Source: Amphibalanus amphitrite (Eukaryota > Arthropoda > Thecostraca > Balanomorpha > Balanidae). Taken from it: a stretch of 64,000 nt of DNA. Position numbers and translations under genes: made by a program. Where the stretch lies: the NCBI RefSeq assembly GCF_019059575.1, contig NW_024881705.1, positions 62,001-126,000 on the forward strand, read 5' to 3'. The notes under the pieces were generated by a model that did not search any database, was not told the origin of the DNA, and worked only from the letters and a program-made list of their open reading frames with translations. Shown piece after piece: positions 21,765-63,370 of the stretch; position 1 is the first letter of the stretch; each line of letters begins with the position of its first letter.

Positions 21765-23423
21765 CAGGGCCTCGGCTAAGGAATTTTGACTACTGGGGCA
21801 AATCGTCAAAGTGTGTTGGCGCCCTGCTGGGGGGGCCCCCAGCAGGGGGGGGGGGCCGCAGGTGTTTGAACACCTGCGGTTTTTCCTGCGGTTTTTCGCG
21901 GATATCTAAAAAACGGCGGCGCTCCATCACCCATCAATTTTACACGTGTTGTAAAAATCTCAGACCAAGGTCATTCAAGATCAGGTTACCAGGTCACTTC
22001 AAGTGACCTCACCTCATGAAATGTTTCCATGTATGCCGTAGCTACACCGAGTGACCGATCGCTTTGAAACTTTCAGCGATTGATAAGGGCAACAGCATGT
22101 ACAAAATTTATATCTCGGAATTTTCATATCGGTGACCTAAGGTCAGCTCACTTTTGCGACCGATCTATTATAAGTCAATGGGAGAAATTCAAAACCACCT
22201 CTTTTGGACGAAAGTTATTCTAAACACTATAAAACACTGTACGTGACTTTGACACACTGAACATGAAAATAGCACCCGTGACCCTTTTTTATGCCCCTGA
22301 GGTCATCTCAGTTCACGAATGGTATCTAACAGTTTTTCGCGAATAACTTTTGAAAGAGGCATGCTAGAGCGATGAAAATGCCTTAGATGTGTTTGGTTAG
22401 ACGATGCAGATCGACTGATATGCAACATGACAATTTCCGGTCAGATCATGACTTGAACCTGAGGTCGAATTTTCAAGTTGACCTTCAAGGTCAAATTGTA
22501 GTTAATTTGATGCGTCTTGACGAGAGGAACACGATGTCGGATAAAAGAAAGCGCTTGCATTGGGCCTTGGCTCGTGCAAAGCATGAGTCAAAAGTTATTG
22601 CAGAAAAACTGTTCCCCCAAAATCGTCTTTAGTAGTTTTTGCCCCTTGCAGGCAAAACCGTTGGCGTTAGGTCAAATCTAAGAGAAATAACCAGAAAGCA
22701 TGCTAATATGGCTATCAAATGCGCTTTTCCGCGGTGCTGTAGCTCTAATTGGTTCCCGAGTTAAGCGTCGGCATCTTGTAAACTGTCGATATTCGACCTG
22801 AAAATCGGCGAAAGTTGGCCTTCACCATGACCTGACCTTTGACCTCACCAAAAAAGTGGCTCAAGTAATTTCGTCATTATTTTTGACGCTCTTTCGAACG
22901 AAGATGGATTATGGGGTGTAAAAAGATATGCTTGCTAATGTACAGTCCACAGCAGAAGTAATGTGCGGTTTCAGTCATGGGTATGTTCTGCTTCTGAAGC
23001 TTAGGAACGATTAGTCAGACTACAATGAAACTTTGAATGTAGCTTATATGTATCGTCAGTCGTCACCCTTGCAGCTGCAATTTTAGCTATTGACATCTTC
23101 TTTTCGATCACTCCGCATTAAACAATCGCCAGTCAAAGCCAATCGTTGAGATTGGTAAAACCCTACATTACTTTAGCGGTGGGCTGTACGCCTATGTTTT
23201 TGGATGGAAATTGAGGGTGCAGCTGCACACCGTGCACTCCCTCTTCCGCCGCCCCTGATTTCTTGCCACAAACGTCTTCAACCGCTCCCGAATGAAAGAA
23301 TGTACGTTAATATTGATATATTCTCATTTTGTGGAGGTTGGGCAAAGCCTGACCACTACTGGGGCATTCCTCGACTCTACTGGGGCATTTGCCCCAGTAG
23401 TTAACATGTTAGCCGAGGCCCTG
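21765..23423 (+). mobile_element. hAT-like element with shared core, 1.66 kb
   Basis: The terminal repeat CAGGGCCTCGGCTAA at 21765 is matched by TTAGCCGAGGCCCTG ending at 23423. The 8-bp duplication AACTAGCC is perfect on both sides (21757-21764 and 23424-23431), which identifies hAT-type insertion. Inside the ends, ACTACTGGGGCAAAT recurs in inverted form. Next comes a CTGCTGGGGGG/CCCCCAGCAG hairpin and a GGTTTTTCGCGGATATCT arm like that of the TTAA-flanked elements at 50518, 60512 and 62164. AGGTCA motifs are frequent. No transposase. A TA-flanked MITE (22943-23186) is nested near the right end. Confidence 0.85.
22943..23186 (+). mobile_element. TA-flanked MITE (mariner-like), copy 1
   Basis: The imperfect terminal inverted repeats are CAGTCCACAGCAGAAGTAAT at the left and, read inward from the right, CAGCCCACCGCTAAAGTAAT, flanked by TA on both sides (22941-22942 and 23187-23188). 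TA duplication and CAGT-like ends fit the Tc1/mariner class. It is nested in the hAT-like element at 21765-23423, so it is younger than that element. An inverted homologous copy is at 29141-29377. Non-coding. Confidence 0.75.
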
Positions 23424-23431
23424 AACTAGCC

Positions 23432-25303
23432 TACACCATAAATCACACAGCTAACTAATCTGCAAGTCATGGCCTATGCACCTTTGGCATTCAATCTGAC
23501 TTTGTTGCATTTTACTTTTTTTAAACCTTCGTTTTATCATACTGATACATGAATGACGATTGATGAATGGTGCATGACAATGTCAATCACAATCACTTAT
23601 GGGTCAAATATGGCTATGCGGATTGTAGAGCAGCCTAAAAAACACCCAAAATGTTTTTTGGCACACCTTGGGTTAGCATGTAAAAGTTCTTAGTTTTAAT
23701 GCACTTTTCTTTTCAGTAAAATTGAAACCTAACACAGTTATGTATGCCAAAACCAGTCAATCAAAACGGAACAGGTAGGCATCGTATGCGTCCAACATGT
23801 GGTCCAAAATGAAAATATATTAGAATTACTTTCAAAAGTTTCATTTATGATCTAAAAATATGCAAATTAAGACAACCAGAAATGGAGCTAAAAAGGCATG
23901 CTAAAAGCAGGCTTTCATGCTTCAGCAAGCACTCGGTGGAACTCTATCTTTTCATACCATACTTATATTAATGTGATACTTATTAATATAATAAATACAA
24001 TATATTAATAAAATATTAATAATATATTAATATAAATAATTAGTATACTCTATGTAAAATACTGTTTGACTTTGACGCGGAAGCTTGTTACACATTGACC
24101 ATCATATTGTGTACCCATCGGCCGTAAGCAGCATGCTGATTTGCTAACAATGACGTGGCTGCATTCATCAGCAACACACTTTTTTGGGACGAAAAAAGGA
24201 ATATCTTTGCCTGGGGTGATTGTTGGGCCGTAAAAATATTGTTGTGCTTGTCTCAGCTCAAGCTCAAGCTATGAAACTGCTAGGCATTCAAGTTCGAACC
24301 CCCGGTCTCCCATGTTAAAAGCAAACTATTTCCTTTAAAGCATTCAATCCATTAGCAAATAATAAAAACGAAAATTGTAAGTATCTACTCACCCAATTAA
24401 CAATATAAGTTTTACGACCGGCCTCTGCCCAGTGCCCACTACCTAAAAGCAGAAGCGAAAAATCCATGAAACCCCCGAAACCCCTAGAAATCCGGAAATC
24501 CTATCGTCTCAGGTGCGTCACAAACCATGGCTAGAATTGCAGCATATGGTAGCAATGGGTTGTCCCCATATGAAGTAAAACTAGTAAGAGTAATCTCGGA
24601 GGCATTTGCAGCACATAAGTCATAACTACTGCCTTGAGCATAACTATCTTGATCTGTAAGAATCTTGAGCATAACCGCGTTGCATTGGCATACAATATGC
24701 TATATTGAGTGAGCAAGTATGCAGAGCCCCGCAGATTTTGCGTATTGTAGAGAAAACATTACCCTACTAAGAACACGTGATGTGAAGATTCAAAATCAGA
24801 TTTGGTGTTTTAGGGCGCGCCAGCAACGAGACTATATATTGGCGCCCATAACCAACCATTCTTCCTCAAAGTCGGAGGTTAAAAATCACATAAAGCCCGG
24901 AGGCCGTGATGAACGAAAAAGGCGAGAGGAATCAAGCAAAGGGAATCGTCGCGGAGAAGAGTTCTCAAGCAGAACTTAGGGCCACGATACCAAGAACGTT
25001 TTAGCCTCGGCTCGTAGTATGACATGTCGGCCTTGGACATCTTTATCTTTATGACAAATCCCGCGCAGAGCTTCGGAATTTGTCCGCATCGAAGGTGGCA
25101 GGCAGGCCGTTCACTGTTCTAGCTAATATCGTGTGTTCTAACCAATAGTGATGAACGACACATTTTCGTTTTGTCTTCTACATACATCATCGAGCCCCTA
25201 ACCTCTAACCTTTTTGCCCCTATCCTCTAGCTTAATCCAATCCTCTAACCTGACAGCGGTACAGTAGGTAAACACTGCCGATGTTCACAACCATAGGCAG
25301 TGT
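23432..25303. other. AT-rich intergenic region with element fragments
   Basis: Contains an AT microsatellite of TTAATA units (23960-24045) and, at about 24177-24343, a diverged copy of the right half of the element at 27771-28327 (shared GGAATATCTTTGCCTGGGGTGAT and AACTATTTCCTTTAA). A hairpin (AAACACTGCC at 25270, GGCAGTGTTT to 25306) abuts the next TTAA site. No gene recognised. Confidence 0.5.
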
Positions 25304-25307
25304 TTAA

Positions 25308-26634
25308 CCCTCGCCGTGCAGGGAGGGAGGGGGAGGGCGTCTTTTACGCCCCCCCCCCAGGTTTATCGCGAATATCTATATAAAAAGCGCCCCAAACTCA
25401 GGCGCGTAACCACAAGTCTGAAGTTACTGGGGACCACATGGAGGGCTGCGAAGACCAAATATTATATTTCAGGAGTCGCCTGAGGGGGGAGAGGGGGCGT
25501 TTTTGGCCAGACCTGCCAGTATTTTGCGCGTGTAAGGAAAACCGCGGCGCGCACCGCCACGAAACTTGGTATAGGTTATGAAACCCCAATTTAGCATCGT
25601 CTGTGAAAATTTTTACCCCAGGTCACCTAAGGTCAGGTCACCAGAGGTCAGCTATACCAACAGAAAAATAGCCGGCTGACGCAATTTTTCTTAAAAAAAA
25701 AAAAAAAACGCTGACGAGTTTCACCAACCAGGCGAAAAATATCCGCCGGTGTGAAAAAAAAAATATCAGCCAGAAAAATAGCCAACGAGTTTCACCAACG
25801 GCAAATGCGGCATTAATGAAACGCTAGCCTGGAAGCTAAGCCGTTGACCTTAGGTCAAAGCTGAGAGCATTACTCAGAAAGGCCTTTGAAACAGCTATCG
25901 AATGCGCTTTCCCGCAGCACTGCAGCTCTATTGGTTCCTGACTTATGCGCCGATTTGTGAAAAGTTGTCAAAATTGGGAACAAAACTTCGTGAAAATTTT
26001 GCCTTTAGTGACCTCCAGACTCCAGTGACCTCAGACTCCAGTGACCTCAGCGATGACCTGATAAAACATGAGATATGTAATTCTTGAAAGATACTGTAGT
26101 GAGCTCTCTGTTGCTTTTTACCGCGTCTTTCTAGCTTGCTTACTTTCCGAGATAATCTGGTGTGGCCAAAAAGCCCCCAGCCCCAACCCCATGGCGAAAT
26201 TGGCTGAGGGGCCCACCCGGGCGTTGGCTAAACAAAACGTGCATTGTTTTGTCTTCCGTTGACTACATATTACTCTTCACGTCGATTTAGAGACAATATT
26301 TGGCTATTTAAGCAAACTGAGGAGGTCGTCGGTTTTACTGGGTACGGTCCCCAGTAACCCAAAAGTTACTGGGGACCGGTCCCCAGTGTCCCCAGTGGTG
26401 GTTACGCGCCTGCCCAAACTAGGTTTAAAGCAATCTGATATGTTTGCCTTTCCCATAAAAAAATAAAAAACGATGTCGCCACGCCAATACCTATAGGTGA
26501 TGTCAAAGTTATATCCCGAAGTTGGATACATATCCGGCCGGCATTTTCGCCATGACTTGCTGCAGTTGCCCTGCCCCCCTTCCCCCCCCCCCCCCAAAGA
26601 AAAATCGGATGACCGCAGCCATGTGCGTCGGGTG
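25308..26634 (+). mobile_element. Possible TTAA-flanked element, split by a hAT-like insertion
   Basis: TTAA at 25304-25307 is followed by CCCTCGCCGTGCAGGG, then a GGGCGTC..GACGCC-type G/C hairpin and GTTTATCGCGAATATCTAT, the left-arm pattern of the 50518 element. It is broken at 25399 by the hAT-like element. The right end is uncertain; GTGCGTCGGGTG followed by TTAA at 26635-26638 is a weak match. Without the insertion it would be only about 305 bp. Confidence 0.4.
25399..26412 (+). mobile_element. hAT-like element nested in a TTAA-type element, 1.0 kb
   Basis: A perfect 15-bp terminal repeat, CAGGCGCGTAACCAC at 25399 and its complement ending at 26412, with the 8-bp duplication CCCAAACT on both sides (25391-25398 and 26413-26420). 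GTTACTGGGGACC repeats lie just inside each end. The interior has the same CGCGGCGCGCACCGCCACGA followed by GAAACTTGGTATAGG arm and AGGTCA-rich stretch seen in other elements of the window, plus an A-rich tract near 25700. No coding capacity. Confidence 0.85.
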
Positions 26635-26638
26635 TTAA

Positions 26639-28327: not shown

Positions 28328-29138
28328 GTCTATGATGAGCAAACAATGCCTACATGAAATGGAAACATAATTCCCAAGGTGATGCCTGCTTTGCTGGAAA
28401 TCATCCTGGAAATCACCCGTTTGACTTTTTACATTTACAAAGGGCAAGATTAACTATTGCATATCAGCGCATTGCGCAGTACGATTTCACTTTGTACAGC
28501 ATACCTATGTATTACCTACTATTTGTAGGTATATGTTCGAGGGAGTTTGAATCTTGTGTAAGCTGTCGTAGCTTATCATTGCAGTAGACGTTTGGTCTAC
28601 ATGCCTCATGTAATTGTAGATGCCATGCATGGGATTGGGTAGTGCAGCCATGGATGAAATAACGTTAATGGTTCAAGTCACCTGATGTAACCTGATGGGA
28701 TTGCACAAAAAGATTAGAGACAACGACGTTTAAAATAAATTCTGTAGAATACCTACAAGCTGAACAAAACGTAATTAAATCTGCATGTAGGTTTTCATCA
28801 GAAGAGATCACATTCAGGCGTCATGTCCAATTCGTGTATGTGCTATAATATGAGCTCGTCTCTTTACTGAACTGCTAAGAAGAACAAATAGGCATTTTGC
28901 TTTTTTAGTCCTACATGGGACGACAATATAGTACAAGATAGGAAACAGACATGGCAATGCGACCGTGGCAAGGTTAATAAAAGCTAAAAAAAAGTTATAC
29001 CGATCAATGAAAAATAAAAGCTGCATCAGACGTTATTGTCGACGAAAGCTTGACGCTTGACGGAAATAGTATGTTAGGGCACGTGCCTATCAACAGCTCT
29101 GTTTACGACGGGCACCTTGGTCTGTTTGATCCGTTTGG
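28328..29138. other. Region without a recognised gene
   Basis: AT-rich unique sequence with short unrelated open frames; nothing recognisable. Confidence 0.4.
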
Positions 29139-29140
29139 TA

Positions 29141-29377
29141 CAGCCCACCGCTAAGGTAATGTGCGGTTTTAACAATCTCAACGGATGGCTTTGACTGGCC
29201 ATTTTTTAATGCGGAGTGATCGAAAATAAGACGTCAATTGATAAACTTGCAGCTGCATGGTTAACGATACATGTAAGCTACATTCAAAGTTTCATTGTAG
29301 TCTGGTTAATCGTTCCTAAGCTTCAGAAGCAGAACATACCCATGACTGAAACCGCACATTACTTCTACTGTGGACTG
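29141..29377 (-). mobile_element. TA-flanked MITE (mariner-like), copy 2
   Basis: Inverted homologue of 22943-23186. It begins CAGCCCACCGCTAAGGTAAT, ends AGTAATGTG-complement..GTGGACTG, and is flanked by TA (29139-29140 and 29378-29379). The interior matches copy 1 over most of its length (for example GTTCCTAAGCTTCAGAAGCA). Confidence 0.75.
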
Positions 29378-29406
29378 TACATGATCAATTTCAGTAGGTT
29401 GTTTAC

Positions 29407-38200: not shown

Positions 38201-38547
38201 GACCTAACCCTGGAAACCAACCCAACCCCGGAAACCAACCCAACCCTGGTAACCAACCCAACCCTGGAAACCAGCCCAACCCTGGAAACCAGCCCAACCC
38301 TGGAAACCAGCCCAACCCTGGAAACCAGCCCAACCCTGGAAACCAGCCCAACCCTGGAAACCAGCCCAACCCTGGAAACCGACCCGTCACCATTACACTC
38401 CCCACCGGTCAGCTTCCTCTCCCCGGCGGCGGCCAGATTCAATTCCCGGGCGGCCAGATTCCGCTGCCGAATCTCATCAATAACCTGTCGAACCTTGGTC
38501 AGCTAGGGCTGTCCACATTACCGCAGCAACAGCAAGGACGCAAATAG
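35224..38547 (+). CDS. Gene A: secreted cysteine-rich protein with NPGNQP repeat tail
   Basis: Three exons: 35224-35259 (MKRSTQLLWIVL), 35594-35938 and 36244-38547, all phase 0, joining to about 894 residues. The N-terminus plus VAAAAGSVAAAS forms a signal peptide. Exon 2 encodes a proline- and lysine-containing linker. Exon 3 encodes about 440 residues of tandem cysteine modules, roughly C..C.....C....FC....C......G..C......C, resembling Dickkopf N-terminal/EB-type cysteine-rich repeats. Then come about 36 hexapeptides NPGNQP, seven of them NFGNQP, and a short hydrophobic C-terminus. The protein is probably extracellular, with a stiff disulphide-rich part and a disordered, possibly elastic or adhesive, tail. 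Function is unknown. Paralogues B and C lack the hexapeptide tail and the second intron. A possible AATAAA is at about 39066. Confidence 0.85.
37735..38387 (+). repeat. 18-bp coding tandem repeat (NPGNQP) in gene A
   Basis: About 36 copies of AACCCTGGAAACCAGCCC in frame. In the first half, units with AATTTTGGA (NFGNQP) alternate strictly with NPGNQP, giving a 36-bp higher-order repeat with seven NF units. One degenerate unit (GSRP) interrupts near 38170. The high nucleotide identity shows recent expansion or homogenisation. Confidence 0.95.
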
Positions 38548-40345: not shown

Positions 40346-40349
40346 TCCT

Positions 40350-47719: not shown

Positions 47720-49963
47720 TCAGCTGCGTCCAAAGGATCGGGCGGGGGCCGGGACGGTCGCGGTGACAGTCGGAGTGGTGAGAGTGACCGTCGGTGACGG
47801 GTTGATGGCCGTCACCGGGCTGGTGCACACGCGGTTGGTGCACACCAGACCGGCGGCGCACTGTACGTTCTGTCCCGAGAGGCAGGCACCGTTCAGCGGC
47901 ACGTTGGCCGTCAGACAGGCGCCCTCGAGGGAGCAGAACTGTCCCAGAGTGCAGCCGCCGAGTGTGCCGGCCGGCAGTCCGGCGCGGCACTGGACGCAGG
48001 TGTCGGACACGCTGCTGCACACACCGCTCTGACAATCGGCGTCTCCCACACAGGAGTCACCCAGGACAGACTTGGCCACGCACATGCCGAGGGTGTTGTC
48101 GCAGCGCTGACCGCTCAAACAGTCCGTGTTGAACAGGCACTGCACGCACTTGTTGGTGACGGGACTGCACGTCAGACTCGGCAGACACTGTTCGGTGGTG
48201 GAGCAGATCTGTCCGGCACGACCCAGAGGCGTGCACGCGCCGTCCACGAGGTCGCAGAAGTGCGTGGTGCTGTCACAGTCTTGCACCCGGCTGCACTGCA
48301 CACATCTGTTCTTGGGCCCGCATTTGTTGGACAAGCACTGGTTGTCGGACGTGCAGACGTCCCTGAACATCCCCTTGCGCACACACTTGAGGTCGGCGCT
48401 GCAGAAACTGTTGTCAGGGCAGCCCAGCGAGTTGACGCAGTCGACACACTGCTGTGTTTTGCTATCACAGATTCTGGACACGCACTGGCTGTTCTCAGAA
48501 CATTTGTAGCCGTATCTGAGGAGGGACTTGCACCGGCCCTTGTCGCAGAACTCACCGGCGTTCTTGCAGTCGCTGTGGTGGGCGCAGTCGGCGCAGAGGC
48601 CTTGCCAGCAGATGTGAGACTTGCACTGGAAGCTGAGCCAGCAGCTGTCTCCCGTTTTACCCGGGGACTTACAGTGTCCGTGGTCGCAGAACTGTCCGGC
48701 CGCGCACGGCTTCCACTGGGAGCACTCGGCGCACTTTCCCTGCAGGCAGCTGTTGGACTGGCAGCTCTCGGCCACCGAGCACGGCATCCACTCGGGCACG
48801 AAGGGCGTGCACTTTCCTGCGGAGCAGTACTGGCCATCGGGACACGCCGAGTACTTGGTGCACTTCACGACGTCGTCCTGCCAGATGTCCACGCAGCGGT
48901 TGTGCTCGCACCGCCTCTGGTAGGTACGACTGTGCCGGCCACCAGCGGAGCAGTGCTCGTCAGTTATGCACTGGACGCAGTTGTATGAGAAGCAGTAGGA
49001 GCCCTTGGGACACTGGTAATCAGTCTTGCATCCGTCGCTGCCGTGGTGGATGACAGGAGTGGCTGGCTGAGGATGTACTGGCTTCGGATGTGCTGTTTGC
49101 GCGTACACGGGTTTTGAAGGGGCTGGCTGCGCGTACACGGGCTGTGAAGGGGCTGGCTGCACATAAACAGGCTTCGGAGGAGCCGGCTGCACATAAACAG
49201 GCTTCGGCTGCACTGGCTGCACGAGCGTCGGCTTCGTCTCTATAACTGGCTGCACGATTATCCGCTTCGGCTTGGGCTGTGCTGGCTTCACGACAATGAC
49301 GGGGCTGATATGAATTGGCCTGTGAACATTCTGCACGTGGGGGACAGGCACATCAACGACCTTCTTTTCCTGCTTCAGTCCTAGGAGGCTCAAAAAGTTG
49401 GCGAAGAAGCGTCCCTTGCGTTCGCCAGAGGTGGTCTCTTCTCCATCCTTGGCGACCTCGGAGGGCCCCTGATCGACCACGGGGGCGGGCTGGTCGGCAG
49501 ATGAGGCCGCGGCAGCACTGCCAGCGGCAGCCACCACCTGAGAAAGGAAAAGGCAGGGGTTAGTTGTTTTCTTTATTCGTAAATGAATGAAATTAGAGCC
49601 ATACTTGTCGTAAAACTCAGGGAACAACCAACAAATAGCAGAGTGAATCGATAAACATTTATGTTTATTGTCAATCTTTTTTGTTTGTTTGTTTTTTTTT
49701 TTGCCGAAATAAAATGGCATATTGTCATATTAAACGTAGTCTGAAAACTGTACAGAAATGCAGTACGACAAATCGATTAAGCGCTACCTCTGCGACAGGT
49801 AAATAAAGTCGGAAGCGCATGAAAGCCTACAGTGTGCTGCAAAATGAACTATTATACACATAGATCACACAATAAGCACCGTAACGACCAAATGAAACGG
49901 AATGCTGCAAACTTTGATTTAGTCACTCACCAGCACTAGGCAAAGAAGCTGGAAGGGCTTCAT
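47720..49963 (-). CDS. Gene C: secreted cysteine-rich protein, paralogue of B
   Basis: Two minus-strand exons: 49931-49963 (MKPFQLLCLVL, then GTGAGT) and 47720-49537, phase 0, giving about 616 residues. The signal peptide spans the intron (VVAAAGSAAAASS). Next come DQPAPVVDQGPSEVAKDGEE and RKGRFFANFL, identical to gene A, then a Pro-rich repeat (QPAPPKPVYV, QPAPSQPVYA, QTAHPKPVHP). About 420 residues of tandem cysteine modules follow, nearly identical to B at first (TDYQCPKGSYCFSYNC, YSACPDGQYCSAGKC) and more diverged later, and the end is ARSFGRS, matching ARSFGRR in B. It is oriented opposite to B. The role is unknown; it is probably extracellular. Confidence 0.87.
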
Positions 49964-50517: not shown

Positions 50518-51544
50518 CCCTCGCCGGCCGAGGGGGGGGGCGGGTGCCGCCCCCCCCATAGGTTTTTTTCGCGATAGCTCCGAACACGCTGGCGATAGAG
50601 AGCTGAAACTTGGCATACCTGACCTTGGATCCAAGCCGCATCTTTTGACACCAACCGCATTTTTGGGTCAAGTCAGGTCACTGACCTATGACGTCATAAG
50701 TGAACCTCTGCACGGTCTTCAGATGTCGCAACTTCGCAACGCCCTCACTGCCAGAGAAGATGTCACAGGGAAATGAAACTTGCAGGATCTAGTATCCATT
50801 ATGAGTCCCACAACTTGTAAATCTCGGATTTTTCCTAAAGGTCATATGAGGTCAGGTCATTTTCGTGACCTCACCATTATAAGTCAATGGGGAAAAATGA
50901 AAACTGCTATTCTGGCGCCGGGAACGATCTTCAACTATCTCAAGCACACAGAATCGTGATTTCATGCACTCCTTGCAAGGTTAGATGCGTCACTTTTGCA
51001 ATGTTGACCTTGCGTGACGTCATTTATGACGTCATCAAGGTCATATTAGTTTTTCGTCAATAACTCTTGATCAAATTGAGCTAGCGAGTCGGGAAAGCCA
51101 CCAATGGACTCAGGAAGACCTGCCGAATCGAATGATATGCGACATGACCTCTTTCGACCAACTTCGTGACCTGGGGGTGCTGACCTGACCTTGACCTGAG
51201 GTCAACACCCCAAGTTGACCTGACCCGGACAAAAAGTATATCATTCGACGCGCCTGAGCGAGAAGAACACGATGCTGCCAAAATCGGCGCTCTGCGGCCG
51301 TTTTTTGCGAAGTTATTCACCAAAAACTGAACCGTACCTTGGGGCACTTGACCTGACCTCAGAGGTCACCGGTTGACCTAGGTCCTTAAAATCGGGTACC
51401 AATCTCTGCGTCTTGTAACGGCGCACACGCTCGTTTTTTCCGCGACGCGCTAGCTCCACCAGGGGCGAAACGGCGAGGGGGGTCGTACCCGCCCCCTCCC
51501 CCTCGGCCGGCGCGTATGTAGAAAACCAATAGGTCCGGCGAGGG
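50518..51544 (+). mobile_element. TTAA-flanked non-autonomous element 1 (piggyBac-like ends)
   Basis: TTAA (50514-50517) then CCCTCGCCGG at the left; CCGGCGAGGG then TTAA (51545-51548) at the right. CCC..GGG ends with TTAA duplication fit piggyBac-type insertion. Inside the left end come CGCCGGCCGAGGGGG, a G-run/C-run hairpin, and a TTTTTTCGCGATAGCTCCGA arm. Before the right end an extra inverted copy of the terminal repeat (CCTCGGCCGGCG) precedes the true end by about 35 bp. The interior holds many AGGTCA/TGACCT hexamers. Non-coding, 1027 bp. Related copies: 40350-42320, 55670-56160 (inverted), and more distantly the other elements. Confidence 0.82.
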
Positions 51545-51548
51545 TTAA

Positions 51549-53429
51549 CCCTATTAGTGGCAGGGGGGGGGGGGTGTTTTTATCCACCCCTCAGGTTTTT
51601 CGGGAATATCTCCGAAACCGCTGAAGCTACGATGCTGAAATTTTCTGACTTTTCCTAAAACTAAATTGGGCACATTCCCTGAAAATTTCAAGTTCATAAC
51701 TTTACCAGGGGCGGCTCCAGAGCACTGGGAATTGGGGGTCCTATTCGTGAAGCGAGTCATTTGGGCGAAGATCACGATGCTGCACCAGTTTTACGAACAG
51801 TGAATGAAAGGTATCATGTGATAACATATACAGTTATTGTGCATCCTCTTTTGACACGTTTTTGCTATAATAGGCGGATCCAGGCGTCCAAAAAGGGGGG
51901 TTATGTTTTACCTCCCAACATAGGTGCCCTGACACCGCCTATGCATGACCAATACAATTGTAGTCGTTCTCTCATAAGAAAATTGTAACATAACAAGACC
52001 ATTACCACCCTTTTTAGAAACAGTACCAACAAAAACCTTATTAACTATACTTTTTGTGTACCCCCAATCTCAATGATCTGTATCCGCCTATGATTTTTAA
52101 AAATGCATATTTTTAGGATCCATGTGAATTCCTGGTTCATTCTCTATCGATCGGCAAAAGTTGCGTTAAAGGGAGATAATGAGCTTTCTTTTTTCTTAAA
52201 TAAAAATTACTCGACATCTATACTATTTCTACTGTAGTTTCTATAAAATATGAAAATTTCCTAGCACATTTTCGTATGTGAAAAAGGTTTTTATTTTTGC
52301 AAAAAAGAAGCAGTACTTGCAGTACTTGTAACACCCACCGAAATGCGTTGTCCTTCTCTATAAAAAAGTCGCAGTATATGGCGCTTTTGTTTCAAACAGC
52401 GACGCTTGGGTTTTTGTTTATGTTATCGCCTTGTCGTTGCTTGGTTGTAAGGATTCTAATTTGAATTAGAGTTAATTCGGTTTAGAATTAATTAGATTCT
52501 AATTCGGGGGTACATAGTGCCTACTCTTCTTTGTTTCCAACATTATTTTGCGCCACAAATGAACGGCATGCGCCAGAAACGCAGCCAAATCTTGCGAATG
52601 CGACTACGAAATTCATTATTTTGGCCTCAGAGCCTGAAGCGAAAAATACAAGCATATTTATTTCAAAAATACTTCAGGTTTGTCGAACGGTGTTATGAGA
52701 ATTTTGATAACAGTACTGCATAAGTTTTTCAGTGATGCCGCAAAAGTGTTGTATCTATCTTCTTTTATTGTGCAGTCGGCGGGACCGATTCAAAATTGAG
52801 TCGTTGCTACTAAAATAGCAGCATATGGCGACAGATGATGAACAGGAAAAATAGTTGCGTAAATTTAGACATAAACCACCCCCAAACCATGAATATCTTT
52901 TGAAGGCACTATAGACGACCATTAACTAACTAGATGTGATGAAGATCAAATGTAATGAATACGCTCATTTTACAAAATTACATGCCAAAAAGTGATGTAA
53001 GTACTTATTCAACGGTCATTTTCAGCGCTCCCCGCTAACGTGACTTCAAGTTGAGATATTTGCGGCAAGGTACCGAATTGAGCAAAATGGTTTTAATTGA
53101 CATTATAACTTGTTGTGTTTTGTCAGAAAATGGTCCTAACTCAGATTTTGTGGAAAAAGGTCATAATCTCCCTTTAAGATTAGTTCAGAAACCTGGCCGT
53201 GATAAACAGTCTAAAATGTATCTGCAATTTGCCCGTTTTTACCCCCCTCTACCCCCCTATTGACATTTTTCAATTTTTATTTTTTATAAATGTAGATCAC
53301 GTTGAGCGAAATCGAATGCCGTTTGAATTTTGAAAATCGGCCCGTTAGATCTCGAGATATCAAGGAGGGGGGTCGTAAACAGCCCCCCTGCCACTAATAG
53401 GGGTAGCCAGGAGCCTGCCACTAATAGGG
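51549..53429 (+). mobile_element. TTAA-flanked non-autonomous element 2, abutting element 1
   Basis: CCCTATTAGTGGCAGG follows TTAA at 51545-51548, and CCTGCCACTAATAGGG precedes TTAA at 53430-53433, a perfect 16-bp inverted repeat. The left TTAA is shared with element 1. It has the same plan: a G-run/C-run hairpin, GGTTTTTCGGGAATATCTCC, and a right arm ATCGGCCCGTTAGATCTCGA before GGGGGGTCGTAAACAGCCCC. An extra copy of the terminal repeat (CTGCCACTAATAGGGG) lies 26 bp before the true end. It is longer than its relatives (1881 bp). A TAGGCGGAT-ended segment at about 51870-52092 may be a nested insertion. Confidence 0.82.
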
Positions 53430-53433: not shown

Positions 53434-54477
53434 GGGCTAGATGGCTAAAAAAATCAGTCATCCTACGAACCGAACGCTTTTTATTTTGAAGTCGATCGGC
53501 GCTAGTAAACGAACAATGTTTAACGGGAATGTTCCGCTTTAACCCTCGCCGATTCTACATATTCGTTTTCCACACGGCACACACATTCCGGCCGAGGGCT
53601 ATAGGTGGCAAGTTTGTTTGTTTATCGTTTGTTTATGGTAATGGACATGACATACTACGTAAATTACGATATAGTACGATATAGTACGACGGATTGTATT
53701 TAAACGTTTGAAGGATTGTTATTGCAATTACAGATTACTAACTATAGTTCGTTTTTCTTAAGTTCGACCCTCACTGTAATCGTCTCTTTGAACACAGCAC
53801 GAGAATTGCTAGCTGAATTACTTAGAAAACTGGCTGGCGCACATTGATTTCACAGACGATTAATTTTACTCAAAATTATTTCTTCCTGGCTCTTATTTCC
53901 CAGACTCCTAGCTCGTAGTTACCTTTACATACAACCCCACAGGGACAGACATCTTGTCAGAAATTATAACTGAACTGATCAATAGATCGTACGGCGTTTA
54001 ACAGAACGGTATATCATCGGTGTTTAAAACTCATTTGGAAAATATTATTCATGTCTGCAGTACAATGTGCGCTAACCAGTTTTCCTAGTAATTTAGCTAG
54101 CAATTCTCGTGCTATGTTCAAAAAGATGTTTACAGTGAGGGTCGAACTTAGAAAAAACGAACTATAGTGCGACGGAAAATAAAGTTGAATTGCTGCGAAA
54201 ACATTTGAATTTATTATAAGGCACCTCAAGTCGAACCCCCTCTCACCGTTTCACGCCTTATTGAACTGGAGCCACGCAGTAAGACGAGCGAATGCGCCAT
54301 TACGAGACGCAGCGACTGGTATCCGACTTTAAGGTCTCAGGTCAATCGGTGACCTTTGAGGTAAAGCAAAATGCCTCCAAGGTAGAGGCTTTTCTTTTGA
54401 TGAATAGCCTCGTCAAAAGTGGTCACAGAGCCGCGGTTTCGGCACCATCCTGTTTGACATGATCAAGCGCGTCAAAT
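53434..54477. other. Region without a recognised gene
   Basis: AT-rich. Two segments form an inverted repeat: about 53745-53835 (CTATAGTTCGTTTTTCTTAAGTTCGACCCTCACTGTAA and on) and about 54055-54170, which reads as its complement. This makes a foldback structure of about 420 bp, likely another MITE. No gene. Confidence 0.5.
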
Positions 54478-55656
54478 GATTACGGAACGAGCGAAGCGAG
54501 CGAGTCTCGTAGAATAACGGAAATTTCTGAGTATGAGCGGCCGGCCGGCCGGCCGTGGTCACGATCTGCGACCGGGAAGTTGGCAGTTGGCACCCACTAG
54601 GTAATGCATATCCATGTGCCAGAGTTGGGGTGCTGATGCACGTGTGCACGTGCAGGGGTCGCTTCCAGATCTCGAGAACGGCTGGACCGTTTACGCTCAA
54701 GTTTGGTACACGGTTAGGGACCAGTTAGTAGGGTGCAGTGCACAAGTCAGTTGGGAGTTGGGACCCATTTTGCACGTGCGCACGTGCAGGGTGCCGCTTC
54801 CAGATCTCGAGAACGGCTAGGCCGATTGTGCTCAAATTTGGCACATCGCTAGAGACCGGTTAGTAGGGTGCCATGCACAAGTCAGTTGGGAGTACCCCCT
54901 CGAAATTTCGCACGTGCAAGGCCCACCCTCTCACTCGCTCCGTTAGTCGCCCCAAAAGGCGTTATACTGGTTACGGAGCGAGCGAAGCGAGCGGAGTCTT
55001 AGGTAGAATAACGGAAATTTCTGAGTATGAGCGGCCGGCCGGCCGTGGTCACGATTCTGCGACGCTTATATCTCAGCAACCACTTGACCGATTTACATGC
55101 GGTAATTTTTGTAGGGTAGCTTCATTCCTTCTACCAAGTATTGGACTATTCTCGATGCATGTGGGTGACCCCTTATGCACGTGCCACGTGCAAAACGAAG
55201 AGGTGTCACTTTTGTTATAGTTGCAATATCTCGGTAACTACCCGGCCGATTGCGCTGAAAGTTGGCATGTAGATAGGCAACCACTAGGCAATGCATATCC
55301 ATGTGCCAGAGTTGGGGTGCTGCTGCACGTGCGCACGTGCAGGGGTTGATTCCAGATCTCGAGAACGGCTCGACCGATTGCGCTCAAATTTGGTACACGG
55401 TTACGGAGCAGTTAGTAGGGTGCCGTGCACAAGTCAGTTGGGACCCATTTTGCACGTGCGCACGTGCAGGGTGCCGCTTCCAGATATCGAGAACGGCTGA
55501 GCCGATTGTGCTCAAATTTGGCACATCGCTAGAGACCGGTTAGTAGGGTGCCGTGCACAAGTCAGTTGGAGGTACCCCCTCGCAATTTCGCACGTGCAAG
55601 GCCCACCCTCTCGCTCGCTCCTTTATTCACCCCAAAAGGCGTTATACTGGTATACT
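54478..55656 (-). repeat. GC-rich dispersed repeat, two inverted units
   Basis: Reverse-complement copies of the 1812-4056 repeat. One unit, 54478-54971, is internally shortened; one, 54972-55656, is nearly full length. They keep the same terminal TTACGGAGCGAGCGAAGCGA, the GGCCGGCC run, the GCACGTGCGCACGTGC palindromes and the AAAAGGCGTTATACTGG end. Tandem pairing occurs at both locations, so the dimer may be the unit that spreads. Confidence 0.75.
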
Positions 55657-55669
55657 TTATGTTTAGGGC

Positions 55670-56160
55670 AGGTCAACTGAAGTGTTGACCCAAGATTAAG
55701 GTAAGGTTACAGCATCGTCACAAAACTGGTCGAAGGAAATCATATGGAATGTTATTAGATTTGGCAGATCTTCTTGAGTCCATTGGTGACTTTTCTGACT
55801 CGTTAGCTTTATAGTTGATCGATAGTTATTGGGAAAAACCTCGATGGCCTTAGTGACATAATAAATAACGTCACCTAGGTCAACAATGTAAGCGCTAAGT
55901 ATCGGTGTTTGCCAAGAGTGTATGAAATCACGAGTTTATGTGCTTGAGATAATCCTCGATCATTTTGACGTCAGAATGGCACTTTTCAATTTCCCTTGAA
56001 TGAGAGATTACGGACCGATCATGACTTCAGATGATTTTAAGAATAATATGCGATTACAAGTTTGGTGGCACGTCAGAGTCAGTCAGTGAACTGACCTGAC
56101 CTGAAAATGCGGCTGGCGTCACAAGATCTGGCTGAAATGAAAGGTGTGCCAACTTCCATC
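55670..56160 (-). repeat. Inverted fragment of the 50.5-kb element family
   Basis: Read on the minus strand, it follows the interior of element 1: CACACCTTTCATTTCAGCCA, the TTGTGACGCCAGCCGCATTT block, the CAAGCACATAAACTCGTGATT block and ACCTGACCTGA-type motifs. Neither terminal repeat is visible, so this is a truncated copy. Confidence 0.6.
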
Positions 56161-57804
56161 TCATTATATTCATTTTTTTATTTTTATCACTTTGTTCTTA
56201 AAGGGACTATCCCACCTTCTAAAATGTTGTTAAAACCAGTTAAATTGTGCCCGACTTTATAGATTGGATGACCAGGAACACGGTTCTGGCATTTATTTTT
56301 CATTAAACATCTTAGGCTTCCCATATTCCAAACACAAACTTTCAAATATGTGATGTCACAGTCCAACATTACTTCCTTCCCCAGGCCACATTACTGTCAT
56401 AAAGCTGATTCTTTTTACTCTGTAGGCACCACAACAAAGTTCAGACCAAGTTTTAAGCGATTTTTCAACGAACAAACCCATTTAAATCAGAATGACTAAA
56501 CGAGGTGACGTCACACTAACGGTCGCTCCATGTTGAAGATAGGGCCTTGTACAAGGCCCATTTTCAAATGAAGGGAACGAATTTCTTCAACACCAAGAGG
56601 CCGCGGGGGTTGCAACCTAGATAGATAGTGGTTTCTGAGCCTCGCCGCAAACTTGGCTATCTCAACTCAAACCCCAGGTTAAAGGTGGGATAGTCCCTTT
56701 AATTGCCCAAAACATTGATTCGTTTAATAACAAAAAGAATGTAAGAGCCTTTGGCTGAGACGCCCGGGGACGGCGTCCCGCACAACGGTGTGGGCTCATC
56801 ACTTGAGGTAACCACCGGTAGGTAGCGGGCACGATGAACAGTTATTTCTCAGGTAGCGTCTTGGTCTAACCGGCAGGAGTTCATTAAGAATAATTACAAA
56901 AAGACGTGAAAACTCACTGCACATAAATAGCGTCGCCTAATCGTTCATTACTGCAATACTGCATACGCCTCACTGAGCCAGTCGTGGGAAGAGCGGTCGG
57001 ATGACTCTCACGGCTTGTGACCTTAAGCTTAGGTGAATATCTATCTATACTACTCTCAATTCTCATTGCAATCCACATTCTGCTTGCACGGGGGGTGGGA
57101 GAACACAAATGACATTAAAAAGGACAAAGCACAATGGTCTTCCCTATCTAACAAAGACATTTTATTTTAGTGACCAGCGACTACGTAGCGATCAAACGAC
57201 GATGCTCTCCCATTCTAAGCTGACCCGACGGTCACCCCGGCAGGCTAAAGGCAAGGGCAATGCCTGTCAGGGCGTCCTGAGCACTACTCTGGGGTGACTG
57301 CATTGACGGCTGGGCATCCTGCCCAGGTACAGTGTGTTATGATGAAAAAATGAGCAGAAAGTACACGTGAGATGTTTGTCCGCAAAATAGACAGTAGATT
57401 GATAACAAATAGCCGTTTCCCATTTGTCCAGAGGTTGTGTCACTATGACTGATAACGCCGTCTGGTGGTCAGTAGGTGGCGCTTCGAGCGGCGGTCCCAC
57501 ATCGGTCCCACATCTGTCGGTTTTCTGGTCCGTCCGCTGACACCAGTCCCTCAGCCTGACCACCTTTGCACAACTGACAGACGAAGTGGTGTAGGAGAAT
57601 AACAGTCATCAGCTCTCTCGGAAACCATGCATCGTGAGTGAAAAATCATATCAATGAATAAAAAAAAATATCGCAGGGCAGTTTCATTCGAGGTCTACAT
57701 TACACTGTTCATGTAGGTGGGAGTTCGCTTTGAGATCAACTTATTTTCGTTGTGATTAGAGGTCATAGTGTGTCAGAACATAATACATCGTTCCGTCGTT
57801 TCCA
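56161..57804. other. Region without a recognised gene
   Basis: An inverted pair, AAAGGGACTATCCCACCTT at 56200 and AAGGTGGGATAGTCCCTTT at 56682, encloses about 500 bp, suggesting another terminal-inverted-repeat element (about 56200-56700). TTAA follows the right arm at 56699-56702; the left flank is TTAA at about 56196-56199, so TTAA duplication is likely. No gene recognised. Confidence 0.5.
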
Positions 57805-58088
57805 ACCTCAGGACATTCAAATTTTTCTCCTCCACACCTCAACCTCCTGTTACGGGCTGGACGGGCAACTTCATCCCAAGCGGGAATGCCCGTAAGAGCA
57901 CGCCCGTAGCCGGGTGCAGTGAGTACTTGGGGGGCTGGTCGGCCTGTCCTATGGGACGGGCTCAGCCCCGGCGACTCACCAGGGTGCTCGCCCATACCAA
58001 TGTCTCCTCCTAATTCCTCTCATCCCTCCGGCCCTGAAATGGTCTCGTCAGACCGAAAGAGCCAACTAAACCCTACAAACAAACAAAC
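57805..58088 (+). mobile_element. SINE/LINE 3'-end repeat with (CAAA)n tail, copy 2
   Basis: Homologous to 13771-14075 in the same orientation: CCTCAGGACATTCAAAT, GTAGCCGGGTGCAGTGAGTA, GACGGGCTCAGCCCCGGCGA, CCAATGTCTCCTCC, GAAATGGTCTCGTC, and an ACAAACAAACAAACG tail. It lacks about 20 bp present in copy 1 around the GCTGCTCCCTTGGAGCGG segment. Confidence 0.7.
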
Positions 58089-58898: not shown

Positions 58899-60545
58899 AT
58901 GCGTCCCTCTCAGCAACTGGTCTGCCTTCTGGCAGTCGCACTGACTGCCGTATCGGCTGCAACGATTACTTCAAAAGGTATGTTGCGCGCAACGAATAAC
59001 GGTTTCTTCTTCAGGTAAGTTAGGTGTAACGATTACTTCCAAACGTAAATCAGGTGCAACGAATACTTTCAAAGGCTGTGTGTATGCCGGTCTGAACGAA
59101 TACTTATAGGTATAGGTACGGGGTGTAGCCAATAATTCTAAACGGATGCTAATTCATAACAAATAAGCCTTTTTCGGTGAAAAGTGCGCATTTTGTTTTT
59201 GATTAGATTTTTCTGACAATTATGCATGGAAATAAACACAGCTTAACATTGTCTTCTCTTTGAGGACAATCCATGTAAGAATTTATATATAGAAAAATAG
59301 TAAAGAAAAAGTCCATGAATCGTCCCTTTCTAAGTGTAACGAAACTGCTGATGTCGGTGGTAAATCCATTTCGAATTATGGCTAGGTCTTGTGCTATAGA
59401 ACCGCAGGCCGCGCTCGATAGCTTACCCGGCTTACAGCACGACAAAATTTCCCAGATGAGTTGAACCCGAGCTTCAATGATTTAATGAATTTTAAAAAAT
59501 GAAACACACCAAGCTTAGACCTCAAATTTGATAGAAACGGTACAGCAAAGTCCACGATCAAAAACTGTGGTCCACGAACGCCGTATTTCGTAAAAGCCAG
59601 CTTCAATTCAGCGGTGTCCAGGCTCCAGCTCATACCTGTTCACTCAAGATAGCTCAGACATTTATAATTTACTGTGTTTCAGATGCCATCATGCAGCGTG
59701 TAGACAATAGCGCTGAGGCCATGACACCTGATAGACAACACTCAGCAATTGCAGCCCAACAAGTGATCGAACAACGGTCTCTGGACGACGCTACCCTTCT
59801 TGCATGTTACGACGGTCAAGAATATAAGCCACTACCTGCGGGGGTGTACTACATACAGTCACCCAACTACAGACCAGGCAATCCCGGAAATTATACCAAT
59901 AATTACCAATGCATGTACAAATTCAAGGCGGCTGACAACAAAAGCAAACTACGGATCGACTGCTTCTTCTTTCAACTGGAAGGCAATATGCCAGATTGTG
60001 TTAGAAAAGACTACCTACTCTTTCAGACCGAAGACCTATTTGCGACCTATTGTGGAAAAAACATACCGAAGACGATGCTCTCGAGGTTCGTGTATGCTTT
60101 TTTCCAGACCAATTCGGAAATCACCGACAAGGGTTTCTTCTGCACGATTATGTCCAAAGAGGCGTTGGCCGGCTCCGGCAGTCTGCCGTGCGGCAAACAT
60201 AACCTTCCACCGGGAACGTACAGCCTCCTCAGTCAGAACTACCCCGACAACTACGGAACCAACATCTACTGCAAGTGGGAGCTGGTAGCCAGCGATCCGT
60301 CAAACACAGTGGACTTCAGCTGCAGCAGCTTTGACATGATCTCCTGGGACAACTCCTGCGAGTGGGACTGGATGAAGGTTGACGGCGTCCGCCACTGCAA
60401 CAACAACAAGCCCGCTCCGCAGCAGTTCACAGGCGGCGTCACCGTGGAGTACTCCACACCGAACTTACCCCACAAAACAAGAAAGGGATTCAAATGCACT
60501 GTTACTGTTATACCGCGCCCCACTGGGGGGTGGGGCTATTTATAG
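58899..60545 (+). CDS. Secreted two-CUB-domain protein; 3' end inside a transposable element
   Basis: Exon 1 58899-58977 encodes MRPSQQLVCLLAVALTAVSA, a signal peptide; a GTATGT donor joins an AG acceptor so that exon 2 starts at 59683 (phase 1). The product is about 313 residues. After a short pro-region come two CUB domains (about residues 68-170 and 180-300), with PAGVYYIQSPNYRPGNPGNY and PPGTYSLLSQNYPDNYGTN as domain starts and GFFCTI and GFKCTV as domain ends. CUB domains bind proteins and sugars outside the cell; in arthropods they often precede a trypsin-like domain. Here none is seen. Translation runs VTVIP, then RPTGGWGYL and a stop, and this last part lies in the TTAA-type element at 60512. 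So the gene may be truncated, or the element supplies its natural end. Confidence 0.82.
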
Positions 60546-61672
60546 CCCCCCTCCCGTTTTTCTGCAATAACTTCGAAACCGCTTGACGTATCAACGCCAA
60601 ACTTTCACTACCTTCGGCTGCATCAATTTGAAACCTTGTGTCAAAATTTCAACTTCGTACCTACCATAGGTAGGCCGGAAATGACGTCAGAATGACGTCA
60701 TGTTCGGCCGATTTCGACGTAAAACATTGAACCACGGCAATCGCTCCCAAGAGCTCAGCTTTTAAGCTAGATCCAATTTCTTTGCATGAGAGGACTCAGA
60801 ATCGACTGCGCTATCAAACTGCTATCTCGGATTTTCGAAATTTTGAAAATTTCGAAAATTTTATATAATAAAATTCAAAATTTATATTTTTACATTTTTT
60901 CAAAAACTTTTTGACTTTTCGAAAAAGCCGGAATATATGTGATAGAACGCATTATTTTGACAAACTCTAGCAAGTTTTAGCTAAATATCTTTAAAAATGG
61001 CCAAGTTATACGCATTATTGCAAAAAATTAACAATTATTAATTTTTCAAATCAATTTTTCAGCAAGAATTTGCCATCGTACGCCAACATAAATAGCACCA
61101 TCGTGTTCCTGAGCTAAAACTGCATCCAATAGACACTTTTTCTGTTGAACCTTTTTTGACCTGAAAGTGACCTGACCTGAGCTAAATTTGACTCAAAATG
61201 ACCTCGAATGACACAGACGACATCAAATTCGAAATGTTTGGCCTAAATGGACCATAAAACATGTGTCACGTGATCGACGGATGATATAATATTTTTGTGA
61301 CCTCTGATGACCTGACCTTGACCTGAAAATCAAAGTACAAGTTTGGTACCCTCAGAGAATCTAGAGCATCTGTTCACGAGTGTGTGAACCAAAAATGAGC
61401 CTGATCTGACTTGTAAGACGGCGGCCAGAGCCCAAAACGTGAAGAAGCCAAAATGCTAATAATTTTTACTTTGACCTGACCTGTGACGTCATCGGTGACC
61501 TCGAGGTCAATGAAATTAGGTTACGCTCGACAGTTTTTCCGGGGCTATCAGACGCCGTTTGAATTTTGACGATCGGCCCAGTAGTTTCGGAGTTAGGAGG
61601 GGGGGGGCTATGAATAGCCCCCCCCTCCCCCCCAGTAGGGCGTGTTATACGCAGACCCCAGTGGGGCGCGGG
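60512..61672 (+). mobile_element. TTAA-type non-autonomous element 3, inserted in the CUB gene 3' end
   Basis: The right end CCCCAGTGGGGCGCGGG precedes TTAA at 61673-61676. The left end ACCGCGCCCCACTGGGG follows TTAT at 60508-60511, so one side of the duplication has changed by a base or two. It has a GGGGCTATTTATAGCCCC hairpin at the left and GGGGCTATGAATAGCCCC at the right. The left arm is TTTTTCTGCAATAACTTCGA and the right arm GATCGGCCCAGTAGTTTCGG. An extra terminal-repeat copy (CCCAGTAGGGCGTG) lies 12 bp before the true end. The interior is rich in TGACCTGACCT words. 1161 bp, non-coding. Confidence 0.8.
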
Positions 61673-61676
61673 TTAA

Positions 61677-62159
61677 ATAAAGAGGAAACAGCATATAACT
61701 ATGAACCCAACAGAGTGAGTGTGCGCATTCATGTGGTTTTACTAGAAATGACACCCGTCGCAAATTCTCAAGCCTCTTAGAACTGTTCGCTTTTGTTATT
61801 TTGAGTTTCAAATAAATTTTGCTTTCGTATAAGTTATTCCTTTCATAGGCTTTACGGAGTGCTTAACTAAGAAACACCAGGCTCCTCACTTCTCCATCAC
61901 CGTTTTATGATATTCGCTATTGGGCACAAATAAATGAATTGGCATGCAAGCCCTTATCTTTTTGGACGACCAAACAAATAAATTGCATGCTACACAAAAT
62001 GATGATAAATACGAGTATGCGCGTTGCAGAATGCAGCGATGCGTGCGTGTGCTAAATGCAACAGCGGATTGCTGGCATATAGGCTTACATTAATACTTAT
62101 CGCTGAATTATCGTCATAATATAGTATCAGTATGCATATGTATTCTCATGGAACGGTCT
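61677..62159. other. Short intergenic stretch
   Basis: AT-rich DNA between two TTAA-type elements; no gene seen. Confidence 0.45.
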
Positions 62160-62163
62160 TTAA

Positions 62164-63370
62164 CCCGCGCAGGGCTGGGGTCTCCAGCCGAACGCGCGGG
62201 GCTGGGGGGGTGTAAATTTTACCCCCCCCCCCTTGTTATCTCCCGAACTAATGGTCCGATTTCGAAAATTCAAACGCAAGTCGAAAGATCTCATCACGAA
62301 CAATTAAAAACATGTACTCAATTTAAATTTTGAGGTCAAGGTCAAGGTCAGGTCAAGGGTAAAAATTGCAAGTTTCTACAGTATCGGCCTTGCACCGTAG
62401 TTGCCGAAGAATGGAGTCATGGACTGAGACTGATTGCCCAAATCGTGTTCTTAGGCTACCAAGACAATATTCGTTGCATACAATATCATTCAAAGGTCAA
62501 GGTCAAGGTCAGGTCAGGTCAGGTCAGGTCACCAAAAACAAAATATAGAAAAGGGCATGTGCGACACATGTTTTATGGGTCATTTTATTCATAGAATTCA
62601 ATAGGCAAACTCAATAAGTGATATGGACCACCTCTGGATGAATTTCAGGTCAAGGTCAGGTCAAGGTCAGGTCAAGTGAGGTCAAATTTTGAAGTTGGTT
62701 GTTAAGGCCTAAAAAGGTGTCTATCTGATGTAGGTAGTTTTTCACGGCAAATCGAATGGTGCTATTATTGTTTCTGTACGAGGTCTAGAACTTCCAAAAA
62801 AACATCATTTTCCAAAAATTTTGCGTGTCGTGACGTCATAGAATTTGAAATAACTCCCACATTTTTGAACCGATTCTTTTGAAAATTGATATGTAGGTGC
62901 ACATAGACCCCTTCTCTGACATATATTCCGGTTTGTTCGATACACTCAAAATTTTGGATTTTATAATTATTTTCCCAAAAAATGTCAGTGTTTTGGAAAA
63001 ATTTGGGCCAAAATCTAAAATTTTCAAAAAACCGAGATAGCCATTTGATAGACAAAGTAGAATCACGTATAACCTTTTTGTTACGTCTTGATTCCCTTAA
63101 AAATGAGGATGTTAGCGGCGTTTGAAATTTTGCCGTTTTTGAGGCGAAAATGACGAACATGACGTCAGTAAAACGTCATTTTCTCAAAAAATTTCTGAAT
63201 GAGTTCGTTCAAATTTTCAGGGAACGTGTCAACTTGATGTAAGAAAAGGTACTGGAAGTTTGGCGGCGCTGCGCGCCGCTGTTTTTGAGATATTGCAAAA
63301 TTCGCGAGGGGGGGGGGGGTAAAATTTACCCCCCCCCTCAGCCCCGCGGGTGCTGAGGGGGTGCTGAGAG
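62164..63370 (-). mobile_element. TTAA-type non-autonomous element 4 (reverse orientation), rich in AGGTCA
   Basis: TTAA at 62160-62163 and 63371-63374. CCCGCGCAGGGCTGGGG at the left end is followed 10 bp in by a second copy (CGCGCGGGGCTGGGGGG). The right end carries CAGCCCCGCGGG then two GGTGCTGAG units. GTAAATTTTAC and GTAAAATTTAC sit in G/C-run hairpins at the two ends. The arms show it lies reversed relative to elements 1-3: GGTCCGATTTCGAAAATTCA at its left is the complement of their right arm. Long head-to-tail runs of AAGGTCA and AGGTCA occur at 62333-62360, 62490-62530 and 62646-62690. Non-coding. Confidence 0.78.

Follow-up and report, generated by a model that had tools for sequence, protein, structure and literature searches.

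Can one non-coding core be carried between the ends of two different transposase systems? The question is raised by a 64,000-nucleotide stretch of the Amphibalanus amphitrite genome (contig NW_024881705.1, positions 62,001 to 126,000 of the forward strand; G+C = 48.9% across the 64 kb; hereafter the window), which holds non-autonomous DNA transposons with either hAT-type ends or piggyBac-type ends flanked by TTAA. A preliminary description had proposed that most of these elements share, in order, a terminal G-run/C-run hairpin, an arm, a conserved block and many AGGTCA/TGACCT words, so that either one module was captured by different transposase systems or two end types arose on one family. 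We found that the core of a hAT-ended element is homologous to that of a TTAA-ended family, and a single old exchange of ends is the probable explanation.

The classification of non-autonomous DNA transposons rests on their ends: those of the hAT type have 8-bp duplications and short inverted repeats starting CAG, and those of the piggyBac/TTAA type have CC[C/T] ends and TTAA duplications. The following features were compared.

21765-23423, + strand: E1, a non-coding hAT-type element
21839-22747, + strand: E1 core, collinear with nt 7-941 of E3 and homologous to it
22645-22845, + strand: right block of E1, common to E2 (nhmmer E=5.4e-19) and spanning the point where the E3 homology stops
25399-26412, + strand: E2, a non-coding hAT-type element
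25526-25621, + strand: arm of E2, 96 nt, an ungapped match to an arm model from E3-E6
50518-51544, + strand: E3, with TTAA on both sides, CCCTCGCCGG at both ends, a left hairpin, 20 AGGTCA words and internal inverted repeats
51549-53429, + strand: E4, TTAA-flanked (CCCTATTAGTGGCAGG); the TTAA at 51545 is common to E3 and E4, and matches to E5/E6 are limited to about 150 bp at the left and to 53260-53402 at the right
60512-61672, + strand: E5, TTAA-type, with a hairpin at each end and 12 TGACCT/AGGTCA words
62164-63370, - strand: E6, TTAA-type, oppositely oriented to E5 and matching almost the whole of it (nhmmer E=5.1e-59)

Both hAT hallmarks, the 8-bp duplication and the CAG-type inverted repeat, are present in E1 and E2, which bears out the CAGGG/CAGGC ends and perfect 8-bp duplications reported for them at the outset. 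The inverted repeats match at 15 of 15 bp (CAGGGCCTCGGCTAA in E1, CAGGCGCGTAACCAC in E2), and the perfect duplications lie flush with the ends (AACTAGCC at 21757-21764 and 23424-23431 for E1, CCCAAACT for E2). The terminal inverted repeats of E3 (CCCTCGCCGG/CCGGCGAGGG) start CC[C/T], as piggyBac-type ends require. The assignment of CCC..GGG ends and TTAA to E3-E6 stands for the most part, with TTAA adjoining seven of their eight ends. The left end of E5 and the right end of E6 are imperfect, because the former reads TTAT/ACCGCGCC (TTAT/ACCGCG) and the latter GAGAG/TTAA, without GGG; the right flank of E5 is TTAA.

Pairwise local alignments of 21 pairs were run with G, C, A and T runs masked, each pair being compared with 100 of its own dinucleotide shuffles (values are score/shuffle maximum), and in a stricter version AGGTCA, TGACCT and GACGTC were masked as well. 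Five of the eight hAT x TTAA pairs beat all shuffles (E1-E3 450/94, E2-E6 132/90, E1-E6 104/87, E2-E3 97/76 and E2-E5 93/92), and three were at shuffle level (E1-E4 83/96, E1-E5 88/93 and E2-E4 70/92). Under the stricter masking, two of the eight stayed above shuffles (E1-E3 163/85 and E2-E6 132/79). Within end types, scores beat the shuffle maximum for E1-E2 (358/96; words masked, 278/86), E5-E6 (605/98), E4-E5 (152/115) and E4-E6 (151/95), and E3-E4 was at shuffle level even unmasked (81/92). E1-E3 aligned on opposite strands also scored above shuffles (127), as expected because the core contains inverted repeats. Long lenient alignments of E3-E5, E4-E5, E4-E6 and E2-E3 had no shuffle control and were not used. 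Words and runs do inflate such scores: masking brings E1-E6, E2-E3 and E2-E5, together with E3-E5 and E3-E6, down to shuffle level, which would suit a convergent origin in which G-runs, AGGTCA and AAAATTT were gathered independently by mutation bias or selection. However, when words and runs are masked, E1-E3, E1-E2 and E5-E6 still outscore every shuffle, and matches by nhmmer also survive; we regard convergence as highly improbable.

The nhmmer search returned a single collinear E3-E1 alignment of ~900 bp (E3 7-941 against 21839-22747, E=1.6e-33), still detected at 22100-22746 when AGGTCA-type words were masked (E=2.7e-18); in the strictest E1-E3 region, 293 of 427 aligned bases are identical. 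As a control, 360 shuffled decoys were searched with six queries, and a single hit had E below 0.01 (0.0089, with the E6 query). On the reversed window the E2 query gave one hit at 1.2e-5, so the E2 arm matches found by nhmmer (about 6e-5) were not trusted alone, and the evidence for that arm is taken from the arm models described below. Against E4-E6, the best match of the E3 core was 2.9e-9 (E5), and with words masked only a short arm match to E4 remained (1.5e-4). The E3 core is thus closer to hAT-ended E1 than to TTAA-ended E4-E6, which match it only in arms and words, and its kinship therefore crosses end type. The shared-core proposal holds in this form, with E1 and E3 homologous and collinear, and the layout "in order" holds for E1/E3 and for E5/E6, not for all six elements.

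Is the core the TTAA family's own, or is E1 simply one element fallen into another? Three further features bear on this.

25304-25398, + strand: E8, the left terminus of a TTAA-type element, with TTAACCCTCGCCG, a G/C hairpin and an arm, split by E2
40320-42330, + strand: E7, a decayed E3-family copy (nhmmer E=7.9e-33, 2.8e-9 and 2e-38) with ends not recognisable
53543-56167, - strand: E10, an E3-family copy (nhmmer E=6.6e-51, 5.6e-34 and 3.5e-9) with its right end TTAACCCTCGCCG at 53539

E7 and E10 are E3-family copies overlooked before. The interior of E7 contains ~1.2 kb of unmatched sequence (about 40718-41929), and E10 is interrupted twice, at 53606-54236 and by a Helitron-like repeat, T (54480-55650), into which its first match (E=6.6e-51) extends about 90 nt. 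Since three copies of the family (E3, E7 and E10) carry the core, the core is the TTAA family's own and has not merely fallen into E3. Four ends within the window carry the word TTAACCCTCGCCG (25304, 50514, 53539 and, reversed, the right end of E3), and TTAA is found on both sides of E3 and on one side each of E8 (left) and E10 (right). E3 itself is palindromic in an imperfect, nested way (E=1.9e-9 and 3.2e-8), with mutually inverted halves and a further inverted pair in the middle. E2 is inserted in E8: the E8 flanks, joined at one copy of the E2 duplication, read ...AAGCGCCCCAAACTAGGTTT..., and a tentative E8 right end, CGTCGGGTG/TTAA, lies at 26626-26638 (by eye). The hairpin and arm at 25304-25398, which had been counted with E2, lie outside the E2 inverted repeat and belong to E8.

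Such a nest shows that one element can come to lie within another, and the nhmmer homology of E1 does start near the left terminus of E3 (nt 7), both as expected if E1 were a mere composite copy in which an E3-like TTAA element had entered a hAT element (or vice versa), with later decay of the inner ends. Against this, the E1-E2 homology runs unbroken through the point where the E3 homology stops, just before the right G-run of E3, and E1 is therefore not simply a hAT element with an intact E3 inside. Moreover, an ungapped search found no E3-type end with fewer than four mismatches in E1 or E2, and E1 has a strong hairpin of its own near its left end. Taken together, these observations make plain nesting unlikely.

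The block at the right of the core, common to E1, E2, E3, E7 and E10, gives a further indication of how the two end types are related. There, E1 and E2 are identical at 86 of 116 positions (74%) and the TTAA-ended trio at 67-76% (E3-E7 90/119, E3-E10 89/118, E7-E10 79/118), compared with 46-53 of 92 (50-58%) across end types. Within this block, identity follows end type, a pattern that fits one old exchange of ends and not frequent swapping or a freely moving module. The earlier alternatives, capture of a module or two end types on one family, are supported in part, in that E1 and the E3 family have homologous cores.

We also compared an ungapped stretch of ~90 nt, the arm, that lies just inside the G-run region and is common to E2, E3, E4, E5 and E6. 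Pairwise identity is 38-64% in register and about 25% on average out of register, and nine of the ten pairs beat their best shifted register. Models built only from the TTAA-ended E3-E6 (96 nt or 56 nt; 500 shuffles) gave the E2 arm scores of 36.3 (shuffle maximum 10.7, reached by 0/500) and 17.2 (reached by 1/500), respectively, and in leave-one-out tests with models that included E2, the arms of E3, E4, E5 and E6 exceeded 500/500 shuffles at both lengths. A scan of the whole window with the 56-nt model gave E2 a score of 16.0; among 20 shuffled windows the top score was 17.5 (median 9.0). In E1, about 24 nt of the arm is missing in the alignment. In E5, and likewise in E6, one end matches the other in inverted form over the hairpin and some of the arm (E=3.6e-5 to 1.8e-4); the separate "right arm" described for the TTAA group is, in these two elements, related to the left arm, in inverted form. 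A nested MITE (miniature inverted-repeat transposable element) at 22940-23189 was considered as another arm carrier and rejected, its scores being reached by 298/500 and 133/500 shuffles with the two models. We also did not accept the arm as coding sequence, the pattern of conservation by 3-phase (0.67, 0.66, 0.73) being too slight.

An arm-like motif was also found in the repeat that interrupts E10, which had likewise been overlooked.

54480-55650, + strand: T, a Helitron-like repeat inside E10, with a 56-nt arm-like motif and a ...CTGG end

Helitrons make no target duplication, insert between A and T, and have a 5' end TC and a CTRR end preceded by a hairpin; their autonomous partners encode a rolling-circle protein. 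With T excised between A and T, the joined E10 flanks read AAAGTATATCATT, as E3 does there, and no target duplication is seen; T has a CTRR end with a hairpin (...CGCCCCAAAAGGCGTTATACTGG/T, by eye), and its 5' end reads TT. It also has inverted kin at 1819-3114 (- strand), an internal tandem duplication and GCACGTGCGCACGTGC palindromes.

The motif in T scored 18.3 with the 56-nt model (shuffle maximum 12.4, 0/500), and arms connect otherwise unlike elements, which would be expected if the core, or the arm, were an independent repeat, or a very common motif of this genome's repeats, that hAT, TTAA and Helitron-like elements had each picked up on their own. On the other hand, no core-specific ends or duplications were seen by eye in E1 or E3, the 96-nt model leaves T unclear (score reached by 23/500 shuffles), and neither model accepts the MITE at 22940. 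We regard this third-party origin only as a tentative possibility; it overlaps in part with an old end exchange, and the two are not exclusive. A bolder version, in which a selfish non-coding module of inward ~90-nt arms, hairpins and arrays of nuclear-receptor half-sites uses at least three systems (hAT, piggyBac-like and Helitron-like) within one genome by changing ends, appears distinctly unlikely; if true, it would be a parasite of transposase systems in general.

ATATCTC..AAC..CT..ACCGATT....GAAA-like stretches may also occur in repeats of other invertebrates. Nothing was found in the literature searched for the arm motif as letters. Viral contigs searched with element patterns gave no match, except for a 16-base word with 14 stretches that were not used. 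Two patterns searched in genome contigs gave 0 and 5 matches, the latter near the rough chance expectation (a few) and one of them resembling ordinary bacterial coding sequence; absence from these collections says little because they hold viruses and prokaryotes.

Among 6-mers with ten or more occurrences in the pooled E1, E2, E3, E5 and E6, the nuclear-receptor half-site AGGTCA is the most enriched, at 12.6-fold relative to the remainder of the window. AGGTCA/TGACCT occurs 12, 10, 20, 12 and 17 times in these five elements, respectively (shuffle means 0.40-0.71; 200 shuffles each), 3 times in E7 (41930-42320 only) and 0 times in T (54589-55651), with means over all regions of 0.14-0.71. Eight regions (9,407 bp) hold 75 of the window's 125 words. 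The claim of many such words is thus correct for these five elements and fails for E4, which lacks an array (1 word, 0.68 expected). Between E3 and E1, 71 of 102 word positions are identical, compared with 404 of 790 other positions. Whole E3 words are kept at 4 of 9 sites in E7 (other hexamers 105/757) and 4 of 16 in E10 (98/742). The arrays persist while single AGGTCA sites turn over. Within the window, the sequence AACACGAT is confined to E1, E3, E5 and E6, each of which has one copy, with varying position and orientation. Separately, the CRE-like word GACGTCA was counted 6, 6 and 4 times in E3, E5 and E6, respectively (about 0.1 expected), and not at all in E1 and E2; it was counted on both strands, so that one TGACGTCA site counts twice.

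Folding as single-stranded DNA gave z of -2 or lower in seven of twelve stretches (E1 left, E8 left, E3 left, both ends of E5 and both of E6) and no clear fold in five (E2 left z +0.87, E4 left -0.5, E4 right -0.7, E3 right -1.0 and E1 right -1.7). A terminal G-run/C-run hairpin, formerly described for most of the elements, is accordingly present in the first seven, absent from the E2 G-run region and not clear at either end of E4 or at the right of E3.

We thus favour the reading that these non-autonomous transposons have homologous non-coding cores under hAT-type and piggyBac-type ends through one old end exchange, and consider it probable rather than secure. Each end type would be mobilised in trans by a matching transposase, of the hAT or the piggyBac-like kind, and the core would have switched ends once, long ago, before the copies seen here diverged. 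The likely route is that an element of one type landed in one of the other, a step of which E2 inside E8 is a present-day example; the inner ends may then have been lost by deletion or faulty gap repair, and the product may have spread with the outer ends. We would guess that the core is kept for help to mobility or expression, and that the arrays, because AGGTCA is a nuclear-receptor half-site, act by recruiting one of the host's nuclear receptors, which would open the element in the germline or early development.

Several observations weigh against a single end exchange. Word masking leaves six of the eight hAT x TTAA pairs no better than shuffles, including E2-E3 (59 against a maximum of 80), and for this reason the statement that most elements share one core was too strong. 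The E2-E3 arms are 38% identical in register and 40% in their best shifted register, and E1 fails the ungapped arm model (457/500 shuffles reach its 96-nt score and 42/500 its 56-nt score). The arm register was first spotted by eye in these very sequences, E2 included. From E3 to E1, whole words are kept at 3 of 16 sites (other hexamers 60/816), and all the word-conservation counts are affected by an aligner that favours words. No transposase, hAT or piggyBac-like, was recognised in 10 of the 88 open frames (at least 50 residues, in eight regions) that were scanned by Pfam. Finally, the evidence comes from one window, with hAT ends taken from two elements with differing terminal repeats and E3-type ends from four ends, and the single copy of E1 would also be compatible with a degenerate composite. 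If the same long core does live between the ends of two transposase superfamilies, then it has a history of its own that end-based classification hides, and the question becomes which of its properties makes it worth retaining: transposase binding, the hairpin or host nuclear-receptor recruitment.

How do these elements compare with known systems? They resemble hAT non-autonomous elements in the 8-bp duplications and CAG... repeats (E1, E2) and differ in that the E1 core is homologous to that of a TTAA family. Likewise, they resemble piggyBac/TTAA elements in their CC[C/T] ends and TTAA (E3, E4 and mostly E5/E6), but differ in G-run/C-run hairpins, arms and AGGTCA arrays, which are not in all of them, and in an E3-family core common to hAT-ended E1. 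A further likeness is to SINE (short interspersed nuclear element) highly conserved domains, in which a central domain has exchangeable heads and tails; these are retroposons copied through RNA, whereas the elements here are DNA transposons.

Precedents come from coral CMITEs and from MER6. The report on the coral CMITE family (PMC2872659) describes the piggyBac/TTAA end hallmark. CMITEs are non-coding MITEs about 100 bp long, built around a 75-bp core, with TTAA and CCC..GGG-type ends; their interior is better conserved from family to family than the terminal repeats are, and a new element was made by nesting. The likeness is an internal region better conserved than the ends, seen here in one pair (the E1 and E3 cores align and their ends differ); in contrast, our elements are about 1 kb or more, and the core also lies between hAT ends, with 8-bp duplications around E1 and E2. 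In MER6/MER6A (PMC6887750), a V domain derived from a SINE (V-SINE), V being a SINE highly conserved domain, is carried between Tc1/mariner ends. This too is a core from one element class between the ends of another, but the donor is a SINE, whereas here both carriers are cut-and-paste elements and the core is without a known donor. The statement that no described family has this plan therefore needs qualification, given that conserved cores with changing ends are known from CMITE and MER6; in the literature searched, which was covered in part, we found no core common to elements with hAT ends and elements with TTAA ends.

The elements are non-coding, with no coding capacity recognised. None of the ten frames scanned against Pfam came close to the cut-off (the four longest E10/T frames were outside these ten); three had weak matches far below it (E 0.029-0.2). 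Rfam at gathering score gave no match in the window, and no tRNA was found there. Elsewhere, the window contains a 7tm_7 chemosensory receptor frame (18591-19940, minus strand) and frames with CUB and EB-module domains, which point to an arthropod source. Three alike cysteine-rich frames lie at 36184-38547, 43581-45434 and 47720-49729 (- strand); the second, the sole one of the three given to Pfam, matched DUF7107 and EB module, and the first contains an 18-bp coding tandem repeat (NPGNQP).

Other repeats were also observed. The MITE nested in E1 (~250 bp, ends GTACAGTCCAC..., 22940-23189) has a second copy at 29138-29388 (- strand) and possibly has a TA target. A palindromic MITE-like insert lies inside E10 (53741-54168; arms 90% complementary). 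Two SINE-like repeats (13941-14074 and 57954-58087) are 82% identical and have (CAAA)n-like tails, and a long array of 21-bp tandem repeats, GAATGTAGGTGCCGCCCCCTC-like, occupies 7857-9000.

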